Positions 13,894 to 17,708 of a DNA stretch of 17,708 nucleotides are shown in pieces. Source of the stretch: an uncultured Leucobacter sp. (GTDB lineage: Bacteria > Actinomycetota > Actinomycetes > Actinomycetales > Microbacteriaceae); NCBI GenBank assembly GCA_937872275.1, contig CALMSE010000209.1, positions 1-17,708 of the forward strand. The letters are read 5' to 3'. Below the pieces are notes generated by a model. That model was not told the origin of the DNA, ran no database searches, and saw only the letters and a program-made list of their open reading frames with translations. The stretch's first letter is position 1. Each line of letters opens with the position of its first letter. The translations under genes were made by a program, and so were the position numbers.

Positions 13894-14562
13894 ATGGAAT
13901 GGTGGGAAGCAGCGATCGAGTGGCTAAACGCCAACAGCGGGGCGGTGAGCGCCGTCGCTACGGTCGGGACCGTGCTCTTCACCGCAGTTGCGGCGAGCGC
14001 GGCCTGGATCACGATCCGCATGTCGCGGCGCCGGAAGCGCAGTAACCTGCAACTCACCTTCCGCCCAAACACGATCCGCGTCGGTCTCGAGATGACGCCC
14101 CGGCAAGTGATCAGCATGAGCCTCATGAACTCAGGCCCTTCAACGCCGATCTGGATCGAGATTCGAATGACCGATGGTCACGGATGGGGGTCAGTGGGGT
14201 TTGACCCTCCGAAGCCCCGAGAGCTGATCCATCCGCTCGAGGATCTTGGCCGTCCGTATCAGCGGAGGAACTACGTCGTTGAATGGATGGAGACCGACGG
14301 TCAGCTGCGACATATTCGCTGCTCGTATCGAGCGGATGGAGAGCTTGACGATCCCAAGAACTCACGAGGGACTCTACGAGGTGTGGAGAAGTGGCTACCG
14401 CGTAGTGAGCGCCCACGCCCTCTGCAAAGAAGACGACCCCTGTTCTTGCTTCGCTGGTACCGAATTCTCCTCGGCGAAGACCAGGCCCCGCCGAGTAGCG
14501 GTCCCGTAGTTCCTGGGACGGCGCACACACCTGGTAGAGATCCGGGCCCACCCGCTTCATGA
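13894..14562 (+). CDS. Membrane-anchored protein of unknown function, plus-strand moron-like gene
   Basis: 222 aa from ATG 13894, with GAGGGG directly in front (very short spacing). It opens with a short amphipathic segment (EWWEAAIEWLNANSG) and one membrane span (about 17-41), then a basic stop-transfer run (RMSRRRKRS). A soluble domain follows: LQLTFRPNTIRVGL, a beta-rich VISMSLMNSGPSTPIWIEIRM region, then YVVEWMETDGQLRHIRCSYR. This resembles bacterial and phage single-span proteins with a cytoplasmic beta-sandwich. The last 50 residues are Pro/Arg-rich and less convincing. It runs opposite to the neighbouring minus-strand genes and is probably expressed in the lysogen. Confidence 0.75.
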   Translation: MEWWEAAIEWLNANSGAVSAVATVGTVLFTAVAASAAWITIRMSRRRKRSNLQLTFRPNTIRVGLEMTPRQVISMSLMNSGPSTPIWIEIRMTDGHGWGSVGFDPPKPRELIHPLEDLGRPYQRRNYVVEWMETDGQLRHIRCSYRADGELDDPKNSRGTLRGVEKWLPRSERPRPLQRRRPLFLLRWYRILLGEDQAPPSSGPVVPGTAHTPGRDPGPPAS

Positions 14563-14604
14563 ACACCGGTCTGTGAGTTCTGGCCCGAGCCCTGAGTATC
14601 CAAC

Positions 14605-14883
14605 TCACGACGCCACCGCCAAGTCAGGCTCCGGGGCCGGCTCCGGCTTCACGACGACCTCGCCGAGCGCAAGGTCAAAGGCATCGGCCAGCAGCGCCAC
14701 GGCTCCGAGAGAGGGTTCGGCTCCGTTGCGATAGCGCTGCAGCGTCGCCCGCGATATCCCCATGATCCTCGCCAGAGCGTCATCGGACTTGATGCCGTTG
14801 TTGATCTTGAGTCGGTCGAGGAGACCGGGGCGGAGCACCCGAACCGGGGATTCAGCTACTTCCGTGACAGTCGGTGCGTTCAT
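14605..14883 (-). CDS. Cro/XRE-family HTH regulator
   Basis: 92 aa from ATG 14883-14881. Helix-turn-helix: GIKSDDALARIMGISRATLQRYRNGAEPSLGAVALLADAFDLALGEVV (about 30-77), a standard XRE fold, with a proline/acid-rich tail (KPEPAPEPDLAVAS). Transcribed divergently from the repressor, it is positioned like Cro and should compete for the same operators. Its own promoter candidate predicts a message starting on or next to the ATG. The plus-strand gene at 13894-14562 separates it from the main minus-strand operon. Confidence 0.9.
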   Translation of the reverse strand: MNAPTVTEVAESPVRVLRPGLLDRLKINNGIKSDDALARIMGISRATLQRYRNGAEPSLGAVALLADAFDLALGEVVVKPEPAPEPDLAVAS

Positions 14884-14971
14884 GCTCCAAGTGTCGCGCT
14901 GTCAAACCATAGTGTCAAGTTTTTGCGCAAAATGGTTTGCGATTGCGACATGTCTGGTTTAGCCTTGCACC
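14884..14971. promoter_or_regulatory. Divergent switch region between the Cro-like gene and repressor
   Basis: 88 bases with markedly lower G/C than the genes around it. Plus strand: TTGCGA 14937-14942, 17-base spacer, TAGCCT 14960-14965, start predicted at the repressor ATG. Minus strand: TTGACA (complement 14913-14918), 17-base spacer, GACACT (complement 14890-14895), start predicted at the Cro-like ATG. Both mRNAs would therefore lack a leader, and neither ATG has a good ribosome site. The region also holds GACATGTC (14947-14954), a perfect palindrome. Confidence 0.6.
14903..14939. repeat. Inverted-repeat operator candidate
   Basis: CAAACCAT at 14903-14910 and ATGGTTTG at 14932-14939 are exact reverse complements separated by 21 bases. 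The left arm lies in the spacer of the leftward promoter and the right arm overlaps the -35 of the repressor promoter, so a dimer bound to both arms would control both directions. A related TGGTTT recurs at 14955-14960. Confidence 0.5.
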
Positions 14972-15430
14972 ATGAACGAGAGCATGAAGTGGATCGACAG
15001 TGTGCGTGGCACCGATTCGCTCCGAGAGGTCGCGCGGCGAATTCACACAACACACTCGACACTGGCAAGACAGGTGAATGCGGACGCAGTCACATTCGAG
15101 ACCGTGCGTGATGTCTCGCGCGCATACCGCCGGTCAGTGCTTTCCGATCTCATTCTCCTCGGGCACCTCACGACCGCAGACGCCGGCTTGGAGGGTGTTG
15201 AGCGGGCCCTGCAAGCGGCCACCGACGCCGAACTAGTTCGAGAAGTGGCCCGACGTATGGACGGTGGTGCGGCCTCGATGTACTGGGACTCTCCAATCTC
15301 GGAAGCTGTCGACCGGGCTGAGAATGTCGCACGTCTGGATGATCATCGAAGGCCACCAGTCGATGATGAGCGTGCGGTCGCCTCCGAGTTCGACGGAGAC
15401 TACGACGAAGACGACGGCTACGACGCATAG
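14972..15430 (+). CDS. Immunity-repressor-like HTH protein
   Basis: 152 aa from ATG 14972. The N-terminal HTH (residues about 6-66) reads MKWIDSVRGTDSLREVARRIHTTHSTLARQVNADAVTFETVRDVSRAY, then RRSVLSDLILLGHLTTAD. This pattern is typical of actinophage immunity repressors and related regulators. The C-terminal part is helical (ELVREVARRMDGG), then extremely acidic (DGDYDEDDGYDA). A weak -10 and -35 place the RNA start at the ATG, so the message is likely leaderless. It heads the plus-strand lysogeny operon: lipoprotein, metallopeptidase, integrase. It should hold the leftward early promoter silent. Identity as repressor is inference from fold and position. Confidence 0.8.
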   Translation: MNESMKWIDSVRGTDSLREVARRIHTTHSTLARQVNADAVTFETVRDVSRAYRRSVLSDLILLGHLTTADAGLEGVERALQAATDAELVREVARRMDGGAASMYWDSPISEAVDRAENVARLDDHRRPPVDDERAVASEFDGDYDEDDGYDA

Positions 15431-15486
15431 ACCACAACTGGAAGACCGGGCGGCAAGGACGCCGTCCAGGAGGAAGGAAACACATC

Positions 15487-16029
15487 ATGAAGCTGATCCA
15501 GCGCGCCCTCGTGACGACCGCCACGGTACTACTGCTCGCGCCTCTCACTGCATGCTCAAGCGAGGACGGTCAGACGGAGGTGGCGCAGTCGATCGCCACA
15601 GAAGAAGCGTCAGCTGAAGCGACGCCGGAGCAACTGGCTTCGATCATCGCGCAGTATGAGGAGGATTGGCGTGCTGTCATCGAGGGGCGAATCGGATGCA
15701 GCAGTGCTCAACTGCGTGCCAACCTCTCAGATGCGACTCCCGGCGAGAAGGCAGAGGCAACGGACTGCCTCCAAGCGATGCGAAACATGTCCTCCACCGC
15801 GGGCACCGCATCGACTGAGCTCGGCAAACTTGCAACGCCTTCGTCGATGGCAGATCTTGTTGCCGAGACTAGGAAGTATCTTGACCAGATCTCCGCAACT
15901 GACCTGGACACGATCTGCGGCGGAGAACCATTCGGCTCAGCCGACTGCACTGCCGCCGACACAACAGCTTTTGAGATGGCGCACATTCGCCTTGATCAGC
16001 AACTCGATGCCTGGGGCCCCTACCTCTGA
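15487..16029 (+). CDS. Secreted lipoprotein of the lysogeny operon
   Basis: 180 aa from ATG 15487 after AGGAGGAAGG (15468-15477). A lipoprotein signal is clear: MKLIQRALVTTATVLLLAPL, then T21-A22-C23 as the lipidated cysteine. The mature part is Ser/Ala/Glu-rich, then largely helical (ASIIAQYEEDWRAVIEGRIGC), and holds four later cysteines (GRIGCSS, TDCLQAM, DTICGGE, SADCTAA) that could form disulfides. Its place between repressor and integrase implies expression in the lysogen. Prophage lipoproteins in this position in other systems (for example Ltp of TP-J34) block DNA entry by related phages. That role is inferred here, as no homologue is recognised. Confidence 0.88.
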   Translation: MKLIQRALVTTATVLLLAPLTACSSEDGQTEVAQSIATEEASAEATPEQLASIIAQYEEDWRAVIEGRIGCSSAQLRANLSDATPGEKAEATDCLQAMRNMSSTAGTASTELGKLATPSSMADLVAETRKYLDQISATDLDTICGGEPFGSADCTAADTTAFEMAHIRLDQQLDAWGPYL

Positions 16030-16036
16030 GGTCGTC

Positions 16037-16432
16037 ATGCAGCATCTGTTTGATCTTGCCGAGATGCAGGGCATCCGCATCGAGTACGCCCCACTCCGCG
16101 GCCGCGATGGCGAGTACCGTCACGACCTGAAGCTCATCCGTCTCCGCGAAGGTATGTCGCCGCGCCGCCTTCGCTCCGTCCTGGCGCACGAACTCGGCCA
16201 CGCCGCATTCGGAGACGTACCGAGCCCGTACGGGCCGCTGAGGGCCCGTCAGGAGCGCCGCGCCGACGAATGGGCGGCACTCCGCCTCATCACCCTCGAC
16301 GCCTACCGAGACGCCGAACTCATCCGAGACGGGCACATCGACTCGATGGCGCACGACCTCGGCGTCATCCCGCGAATCGTCGGAGCCTTCCGGCGGGTGC
16401 TCGAGCGGGAGCTCGCCAGGGCAGTCGCCTGA
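16037..16432 (+). CDS. ImmA/IrrE-family metallopeptidase
   Basis: 131 aa from ATG 16037, with GAGG five bases upstream overlapping the lipoprotein stop. The zinc motif HELGH (51-55) follows a LRSVLA helix, and the third ligand is probably E73 in ERRADEWAAL, as in the ImmA/IrrE family. An N-terminal EMQGIRIEYAPLRG and a beta-hairpin (RHDLKLIRLREGMSP) match the family. Such enzymes cleave phage repressors (ImmA with ImmR of ICEBs1) and so trigger induction. The stop overlaps the integrase start as TGATG, tying immunity and integration to one transcript. The substrate is likely the repressor encoded two genes upstream, but this is inference. Confidence 0.92.
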   Translation: MQHLFDLAEMQGIRIEYAPLRGRDGEYRHDLKLIRLREGMSPRRLRSVLAHELGHAAFGDVPSPYGPLRARQERRADEWAALRLITLDAYRDAELIRDGHIDSMAHDLGVIPRIVGAFRRVLERELARAVA

Positions 16433-17595
16433 TGGCCACGATCAAGGCCTACGAGACCGCGGCCGGGAAACGCTACCGGGTGAGATACCGGAAACCGGAC
16501 AAGTCGCAGACCGACAAGCGCGGATTCAAGACGAAACGCGAGGCGGAGATCTTCGCCGCCTCCGTGACCGTGTCTAAGGCGACGGGGGAGTACATCGACC
16601 CCCAACTGGGACGCATCACCGTCGCGCAACTCTCGAAAGGGTGGCTGGCAGGCAAGGAGAGCTCGCTGAAGCCCTCCGCATACCGACCGCTCGAATCAGC
16701 GTGGAGAACGCACGTGGAGCCCGGCTGGGGTGACCGTGAGGCGAAGGGGATCCAACCCTCCGAAGTGCAGCAATGGGTCGCGGGGCTCGGCAAGAAGAAA
16801 TCCGCGACGACCGCGTCCCGCGCACTCGGTGTGCTCGCCGGGATCCTCGACCAAGCGGTGGCCGACAGGCGCATCCCACGCAACCCCGCCCGGGGCGCGA
16901 AAACGGCGCGCAGGAAACCGAAGCCGCGCGTCTACCTCACCCACGACCAGGTGCAGGAGCTCGCCGAAGCCTCCGCGCATCCCGCACTGGTGCTCACGCT
17001 CGCATACACCGGCCTCCGCTGGGGAGAGGCAACCGCCCTGCGAGTGCGCTCCGTGAACGAGGTGCGGCGCCGGCTCCACGTCGAGGAGAACGCGGTGCTC
17101 GCCGGATCCGTGCTCCACGTCGGCACACCGAAGACCCACGAGAAGCGCAGCGTCCCCTACCCGGCGTTCCTCGCGAAGCACCTCACCGCTCAGTCGCAGG
17201 GGAAGCGGCCGGAGCAGTTGCTCTTCGGCGCCGGGGACGCGCACCTGCGACTGCCGAACTCGGTGAACGGGTGGTTCGCCTCCGCGGTTGACAAGGTGCG
17301 TGCCGCGCATCAGACCCGGTGGGAGGAGGCGACCGAGGCTGAGAGAGAGGCGCTGCCGCCGATCATGCCCCGAGTCACCCCGCACGACCTCCGCCACACC
17401 GCCGCATCGCTCGCGATCAGTTCAGGTGCGAACGTGAAGGCCGTGCAGAGGATGCTCGGCCATGCCTCCGCCGCGATGACCCTCGACACCTACGCCGACC
17501 TGTTCGATGACGATCTGGACGGTGTCGCCGCGAATCTCGAAGCCGCAGCCCGTGCCGCGAGTGTGGGCAAAAAGTGGGCAAACGTCGTCGCCTGA
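16432..17595 (+). CDS. int: Tyrosine-family site-specific integrase
   Basis: 387 aa from ATG 16432. The opening back to 16270 is rejected because it lies inside the metallopeptidase gene, and the MATIKAYETAAGKRYRVRYRK N-terminus is the arm-type DNA-binding domain of actinophage integrases. Next comes the core-binding SAM-like domain (about 60-145), then the catalytic domain. Catalytic residues are R196 (YTGLRWGE), K234 (TPKTHEKR), H318 and R321 (HDLRHTAAS), H344 (MLGHAS), and Y354 (TLDTYADLF). All are present, so the enzyme should be active. It is followed by a terminator and a tRNA-derived att core. Confidence 0.97.
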   Translation: MATIKAYETAAGKRYRVRYRKPDKSQTDKRGFKTKREAEIFAASVTVSKATGEYIDPQLGRITVAQLSKGWLAGKESSLKPSAYRPLESAWRTHVEPGWGDREAKGIQPSEVQQWVAGLGKKKSATTASRALGVLAGILDQAVADRRIPRNPARGAKTARRKPKPRVYLTHDQVQELAEASAHPALVLTLAYTGLRWGEATALRVRSVNEVRRRLHVEENAVLAGSVLHVGTPKTHEKRSVPYPAFLAKHLTAQSQGKRPEQLLFGAGDAHLRLPNSVNGWFASAVDKVRAAHQTRWEEATEAEREALPPIMPRVTPHDLRHTAASLAISSGANVKAVQRMLGHASAAMTLDTYADLFDDDLDGVAANLEAAARAASVGKKWANVVA

Positions 17596-17600
17596 AATAG

Positions 17601-17650
17601 AAAAAGCCCCCGACTCCCTAGTGTTTTCTAGGGGAGTCGGGGGCTTCTAT
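17601..17650 (+). terminator. Strong rho-independent-type hairpin after the integrase
   Basis: Left arm 17604-17621 and right arm 17628-17646 are complementary over 18 pairs with one bulged base, around a short T-rich loop (17622-17627). An A-run precedes and a CTT/TAT follows. It begins 6 bases after the integrase stop and would end the lysogeny operon. By symmetry it also blocks transcription entering from the host side. Confidence 0.9.
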
Positions 17651-17651
17651 C

Positions 17652-17674
17652 TGGCGGTGACGGTGGGATTTGAA
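17652..17674 (-). other. Attachment-site core: 3' fragment of a tRNA gene (probably tRNA-Ser)
   Basis: On the minus strand this reads as T-loop TTCAAAT, T-stem 3' half CCCAC, acceptor 3' half CGTCACC, discriminator G, and an encoded CCA. The upstream bases (GCGGC) cannot pair with CCCAC, so this is not a complete tRNA but the 3' end duplicated or carried by the phage. An acceptor beginning GGTGACG with discriminator G suggests a serine tRNA. Position next to the integrase makes it an attP core or one prophage end. Confidence 0.75.
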
Positions 17675-17708
17675 GCCGCTTCGCGCCCAAGCGGTGGCTC
17701 AGGATCCG

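Follow-up and report, generated by a model that had tools for sequence, protein, structure and literature searches.

A candidate ImmA cut site in the acidic C-terminal tail of a lysogeny repressor from a probable Leucobacter actinophage

Pairs of a repressor and a protease are widespread among phages and mobile elements, and to our knowledge the bond that the protease cuts has been mapped in few cases. Where would such a cut fall? The question is raised by positions 14972–17595 of a 17,708-nucleotide stretch of DNA from an uncultured Leucobacter sp. (assembly GCA_937872275.1, contig CALMSE010000209.1), hereafter the window. The window makes up contig G000:C209 in full; the assembly has 346 contigs and is 77% complete. 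A repressor gene (14972–15430, plus strand, 152 amino acids) is followed there by genes for a surface lipoprotein, an ImmA/IrrE-type (M78) metallopeptidase (16037–16432, plus strand, 131 amino acids, with the motif HELGH) and a tyrosine integrase. We lean slightly towards reading these genes as the lysogeny module of a temperate Leucobacter actinophage, whose ImmA would cut the acidic tail of the repressor on induction, most likely between A137 and S138. The reading starts from the gene content and order, an attachment (att)-like site, and a tail site conserved across unrelated helix-turn-helix (HTH) repressors beside ImmA relatives; the tail as target, the bond, the trigger, the function of the lipoprotein and a common transcript are proposals built upon these.

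The tail of the window repressor reads VA|SEFDGDYDEDDGYDA (15377–15427, plus strand), where the bar marks the predicted ImmA site, A137 (codon 15380–15382)|S138. In aligned repressors of annotated phages the HTH halves are poorly related and the C-termini alike. For a wider sample, ImmA relatives were gathered from viral contigs, genomes and the same genus, and the adjoining repressor was taken for each. The 120 loci or regions entered (L107 was excluded beforehand) comprised two without an ImmA open reading frame (ORF; L070 and L098) and 118 that reduced to 104 distinct ImmA proteins. Six loci (L051, L080, L131, L137, L138 and L140) were not carried into the repressor set because no upstream repressor was in reach, the ImmA was weak or broken, or the contig ended, and 98 were kept. 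Together with added annotated phages these gave 108 repressors and 63 non-redundant tails. A de novo motif, [VA]A[RKSDH]x[RKS][DST]xDx[GE], was obtained with a log-likelihood of 404, compared with 215–237 in eight shuffles. A plain tail rule, [AV]A followed by one of RKHSDEQFNM with 8–30 residues remaining, holds for 60 of the 63 tails. Shuffling the tails 500 times gave a mean of 13 and never more than 23, and of the 137 other proteins encoded in the annotated regions, which served as controls, 22 fit the rule. The literature searched, in which few subscription papers were covered, yielded the Listeria motif but no description of this tail from actinophages, which is no proof that none exists.

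Tail similarity tracks ImmA similarity much more than HTH similarity. Over 97 loci the correlation with ImmA similarity is rho 0.46 for the tail and 0.17 for the HTH half, and the partial correlation of tail and ImmA given the HTH half is 0.45, a value reached by none of 500 permutations. Of 4656 pairs, 3635 have unrelated HTH halves, and in these the median similarity of the tails climbs from 0.11 to 0.63 with growing ImmA similarity. Two homologues of the window repressor (P0017 and P0026) have the same HTH half and another tail type (...RYAADERDGRDEEAEADPHP), which suggests tail swapping within a single HTH family.

The same association could arise if the tail accompanied immA merely as adjacent DNA, with recombination between the HTH half and the tail, recognition of the repressor by ImmA elsewhere, and an acidic end that the following gene imposes through its ribosome-binding site and start. 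The repressor and immA genes overlap or almost touch in many loci, and ends of the GED type are able to encode a Shine-Dalgarno-like GAGG. DNA adjacency can account for part of the association. Nevertheless, with a median of 14 codons between it and the stop, the [AV]A site falls outside a ribosome-binding site, and it is retained in eight of nine cassettes that have a gene inserted between repressor and immA (the window, L073, L114, L120, L122, L126, L012 and L153, not L152), several of these repressors having been picked by hand. We consider it unlikely that adjacency is the explanation.

Alternatively, the tail may be an acidic element that serves the activity or the oligomerisation of the repressor and works independently of the protease. 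The residues after the site (median 14, mostly acidic or polar) are 35% acidic, compared with 14% in control C-termini, as such an element would have it. That the tail site tracks ImmA similarity argues in the other direction, as do two repressors that lack the tail site, gp34 of Schmidt and gp34 of Brujita, whose phages have no ImmA listed nearby (n=2). We regard a protease-independent element as quite improbable, and the acidic tail as probably the target of ImmA. The initial annotation had recognised the acidic tail and had set it as a contrast to ImmR/ImmA; the tail itself is there, and it is probably what the protease acts on.

The bond A137|S138 is predicted by analogy with the cut position of the Listeria protease MpaR, which cleaves a CI-like repressor between A and H (TIAA|HID), as found by mass spectrometry, in a region common to five Listeria repressors (PMC6872733). 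In the Listeria systems (phi10403S and the monocin, with A118 taken as sequence) a metalloprotease gene likewise adjoins an HTH repressor, and a site of small residues (IAA|H, LLAAH) follows the HTH domain; the A118 CI carries LLAAHID. The actinophage site appears to be of a similar kind and lies closer to the C-terminus. The two groups differ in what comes after the site, a helix-rich stretch (27 residues in A118) as opposed to mostly acidic or polar residues, 14 in the median, behind many unrelated HTH halves in the actinophages. The window sequence RAVA|SEFD fits the actinophage rule, and its likeness to TIAA|HID is short.

Several points weigh against a shared cut site in the tail. The tail rule was formulated after the tails had been inspected, and the repressor ORF was chosen by hand in 16 of the 98 loci, so that a bias towards tails that look right is possible. 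Three tails miss the rule: L132 has VSH at that place, L152R has QAG, and L148R has nothing, although the neighbour L148r conforms. When a matrix built from 46 tails, mainly of Microbacteriaceae, was applied to 17 held-out tails and the 137 controls, the area under the curve was 0.86 (p=7e-7), yet only 8 of the 17 scored above the 95th percentile of the controls, and the best of these eight (L049, the vB_MoxS-R1 copy) is itself from Microbacterium. The best match of the tail matrix in the A118 CI falls off the LLAAHID site. In ImmR of ICEBs1 and in DdrO, the bond that is cut is of a different kind. The ICEBs1 pair likewise joins a repressor to an M78 protease that acts as anti-repressor, with no shared tail established between ImmR and the window repressor.

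A cut after [AV]A (-RAVA in the window) would leave an end resembling the ssrA tag of related hosts (-DFALAA), and a ClpX-type protease may therefore complete the inactivation. In this extension of the tail-cleavage reading, ImmA removes an acidic cap, and the exposed -[AV]A then marks the repressor for degradation like an ssrA-tagged protein. In favour of such a step, the predicted cut would spare the HTH half. All 30 transfer-messenger RNA (tmRNA) loci read from the same genus or order encode a tag ending in -(D/E)FALAA; the tmRNA of the Leucobacter genome itself was not recovered at the family cut-off. Scored against DFALAA, the tails have a mean of 10.1, compared with 6.8 for shuffles (maximum 7.8), and DFALAA ranks first among its 120 permutations. 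Scores of at least 14 are found in 15 of 63 tails and 6 of 137 controls. At a threshold of at least 10 the two sets overlap (31 of 63 and 31 of 137), and many tails resemble DFALAA poorly (e.g. EVA|F, PHAA|D). An ImmA pocket that prefers alanine would produce the same pattern. Precedents exist in LexA and the Staphylococcus aureus CI, where ClpX acts on the fragments after the cut (PMC10584840), and in the ssrA-like tags that BPs and other actinophages have on their repressors (PMC4557955, PMC8092301, PMC6109161). The ClpX-type step is speculative, and we think it rather doubtful.

A further elaboration concerns the opponent of the repressor. The gene divergent from it (14605–14883, minus strand) encodes a Cro-like HTH protein of 92 amino acids (Pfam HTH_3, E=1.2e-7; phrog_9103 'transcriptional repressor', E=3e-11) that ends in -DLAVAS. 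In a two-sided proteolysis switch, ImmA would unmask a latent ssrA-like -[AV]A on the repressor for clearance of the ClpX type, the Cro-like protein would show such a C-terminus openly, and the cap would be portable between unrelated DNA-binding domains while co-evolving with ImmA. Among annotated phage regions (L005–L012, L148–L155) the Cro-like neighbour ends in -AA in 12 of 15 cases, which are not independent (L149–L151 are near relatives, and L152 is Rha-like rather than Cro-like), compared with 19 of 189 other proteins. Among unannotated loci (L036–L147), an ending in [AV]A[AS] or AA is found in 46 of 79 Cro-like proteins, whose HTH assignment was made by chained sequence matches only, and in 19 of 258 background ORFs. 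A test at the level of families was uninformative, since single linkage put the 79 proteins into four clusters, two of them positive (p=0.03).

The ending -AVAS was at first read as a pure protein degron, a reading that the codon check weakened. The [AV]AS endings are encoded by the same DNA string, GCGGTGGC[GA]TC[GA]TGA, in 12 of 21 cases including the window, and all 21 finish in GTGA or ATGA. Both findings make a cause at the level of DNA or translational coupling possible, and part of the Cro-like endings in Microbacteriaceae may thus be an effect of gene overlaps. Overlap alone is not sufficient: ORFs that end in an overlap have such a C-terminus in 36 of 51 Cro-like cases and 19 of 179 background cases, a comparison in which the Cro-like count admits TTGA and the background count does not. 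Of the 12 -AA endings seen in annotated phages, 10 occur without that overlap and with varied codons. The -AA endings are a protein-level feature in the annotated phages, and in Microbacteriaceae they are confounded by the gene-overlap string. We give the two-sided switch a small probability.

The proposed course of events can now be laid over the genes. The repressor and the divergent Cro-like protein would compete at the 88-base spacer between their genes (14884–14971), likely the operator and promoter region. This spacer contains an imperfect inverted repeat (14892–14910 and 14932–14950; 19-nucleotide arms, 79% complementary) and both of the two copies of CAAACCAT in the window; a simple scan for sigma-70-type promoters listed none in 14884–14971. 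In the lysogen, the repressor operon would also yield the surface lipoprotein, probably barring related phages, and would supply the integrase for a tRNA-Ser(CGA) site, with the ImmA-type protease idle until a stress signal. On induction, ImmA would cut the acidic C-terminal tail, with A137|S138 as the most likely bond. A single transcript of the four genes, which the initial annotation held probable, finds support by analogy and is inferred from a gap of 56 bases between repressor and lipoprotein (15487–16029, plus strand), a gap of 7 bases between lipoprotein and protease, and the one base shared by protease and integrase (16432–17595, plus strand).

The four genes on one strand and their order, as given in the initial annotation, are borne out: all ORFs lie on the plus strand, and family matches agree for the repressor (phrog_16278 'HTH DNA binding protein', E=2e-26), the protease (PF06114, E=5e-11; phrog_87, E=1e-21) and the integrase (387 amino acids; PF00589, E=3e-18; phrog_1, E=3e-68). 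The TGATG overlap of protease and integrase that it named is indeed a single base, at 16432. It assigned the repressor to an actinophage-type family, and the phrog_16278 match and the homologue set (33 additional homologues at E<=0.001) support an actinobacterial family; Pfam gave only sub-threshold HTH matches for this protein. The protease residues H51, E52, H55 and E73 are invariant across nine aligned sequences. Two features of an ImmR/ImmA-type pair are present, namely an HExxH protease of the M78 family and a nearby HTH repressor on the same strand with one gene between, and the HTH and M78 matches uphold the earlier proposal of a lysogeny module with ImmR/ImmA-like logic. A divergent Cro-like gene, a repressor and an integrase are all found in the window, as in lysogeny cassettes of actinophages.

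The gene set is ordinary, since temperate actinophages often combine a repressor and an integrase with a protease of the ImmA/IrrE type and either a lipoprotein or a membrane protein; it is the tail rule that is a testable generalisation, one that the literature searched did not show. A repressor and an ImmA-type protease, with an integrase nearby in most of the regions read, occur in phi16, PMP-GADVASU-IND, vB_MoxS-R1, Poushou, StAB, IME1320_01, Sleepyhead, PMBT6, TripleJ, Stiles and others. The protease immediately follows the presumed repressor in 13 of 16 regions, a count that takes as repressors gp40 of TripleJ and, in ctl617, a hypothetical protein that is unverified, and lies farther away in PMBT6, Kenna and Juicebox. 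The search for this gene order that the initial annotation had suggested thus found an arrangement common in actinophages, with the order repressor–lipoprotein–protease recurring in PMBT6. At the DNA level the cassette shares only short patches with phages (69–79% identity, mostly in the integrase; best 20 of 59 records). Modules of phi16, PMBT6 and Sleepyhead have in common with the window a repressor, an ImmA-type protease, a membrane protein or lipoprotein gene and an integrase, but their lipoprotein families differ from that of the window. Only PMBT6 among these three has the lipoprotein between repressor and protease, with its integrase on the opposite strand; in phi16 a membrane protein comes after the protease, and in Sleepyhead a lipoprotein comes after the integrase.

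Members of this kind of system have been noted before: cg1988/cg1989 of Corynebacterium glutamicum as a repressor-protease pair (PMC8002715), ORF2 of vB_MoxS-R1 as ImmA-like (PMC9030533), and a theme shared by ImmRA, CapHP and DdrO/IrrE (PMC10233336). In phage BPs the fate of the repressor is likewise set at its C-terminus, through an ssrA-like tag (PMC4557955). The attP of BPs lies within the repressor gene, whereas the att core of the window (17620–17674) lies beyond the integrase gene and outside the repressor gene, and integration-dependent immunity of the BPs type was rejected on that ground. The lysogeny genes of PMP-GADVASU-IND (KY203335.1, L006), a phage ascribed to Pasteurella, resemble those of Corynebacterium phages, and the stated host may be mislabelled.

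What does the gene between repressor and protease do? It encodes 180 amino acids with a lipobox, LTAC, identified by eye, and is probably a superinfection exclusion protein that blocks the entry of related phages, as judged by analogy. No family in Pfam or PHROGs matched better than E=0.019 and none in NCBIfam up to 0.1, and the best match to solved structures (E=0.089) is to an N-terminal stretch of LpqN, with no sequence match of the Ltp type. Five homologues (P0002–P0006; 31–56% identity) each have a lipobox and, at the C-terminus, WxPYL. By our own reading, 8 of the 16 annotated regions have a gene for a lipoprotein or membrane protein on the strand of the lysogeny genes, and so have L114, L120 and L122; one such gene of phi16 is annotated as 'putative super infection exclusion protein'. 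In TP-J34, the lipoprotein Ltp likewise lies in a lysogeny module beside a CI-type repressor and a metalloproteinase, in a different order (int–ltp–protease–repressor; PMC3952083). These neighbours make it less attractive to see the window lipoprotein as cargo with another role in the envelope, an alternative that we hold to be unlikely but worth keeping in mind. In its favour, relatives of the lipoprotein occur in 7 of 398 genomes of the family including its own, and in the six others inspection by eye of the ORFs up to about 1.5 kb away revealed no phage gene; no relative was found among 50,697 phage records. Scans of viral contigs with the repressor and with the lipoprotein as query found no relative of either.

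Lipobox genes lie between repressor and protease in 3 of 101 loci scanned (the window copy, L120 and PMBT6) and, by eye, in L122. The four proteins are by eye unrelated to one another, which fits an interchangeable exclusion slot, as with Ltp of TP-J34. The slot is not restricted to lipoproteins, since the gene between repressor and immA encodes 336 amino acids in L126 and 107 amino acids without a lipobox in L073.

After the integrase gene comes a strong hairpin (17597–17650; RNA fold -37.6 kcal/mol, z=-6.1), a probable terminator that a simple terminator scan did not list; its right arm lies within the putative attP core (17620–17674). The 55 bases of this core, the 3′ end of a tRNA-Ser(CGA) gene on the minus strand plus its flank, are identical to positions 1–55 of contig C183, a length that may merely reflect assembly overlap, and ARAGORN places a tRNA-Ser(CGA) at C183 33–123. 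A tRNA 3′ end thus adjoins the integrase gene, the arrangement of a tRNA-targeting tyrosine-integrase system. Beyond the shared bases the contigs split, C183 entering the tRNA and the window a non-tRNA sequence (17675–17708) that is probably the other phage arm of attP; a 26-base probe from it (at most two mismatches) has no other occurrence in the assembly. A tRNA scan of the window found none, since only the tRNA 3′ end is present. The contig joins an integrase gene, a tRNA-Ser 3′ core and an arm outside the tRNA, as the attP of an excised phage would. The contig end (17620–17708, compared with G000:C183:1–58, L004) has the look of attP, not of attL or attR, and hints at excised phage DNA in the sampled population. 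Sequence like the att region has a match in 47 of 60 genomes, its own counted, and a tRNA-Ser was found at 14 of 17 such loci scanned (12 CGA, 2 GCT), these being 16 of 20 loci from the att search plus L004. In a genome of the same genus, two equally scoring att-like copies lie 6.9 kb apart (L017; G002:C13:22233–22306 and 29118–29191), spaced as if flanking a small element at this type of site.

On the other side of the module, adjoining the Cro-like gene, two long ORFs overlap on opposite strands (13894–14562, plus; 14123–14608, minus), neither with a Pfam or PHROGs family. The former opens with a membrane-like stretch by eye, and the start of the latter resembles an ORF in L073. An Rfam scan of the window gave no match at gathering scores.

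If the tail is a portable C-terminal cut site, it would predict which repressors a given ImmA can inactivate, and the substrate choice of ImmA would become directly testable in many actinophages. Such a site could also account for cross-induction between prophages. The link to an ssrA-type degron, if true, would join this lysogeny switch to the two-step inactivation of the LexA kind.

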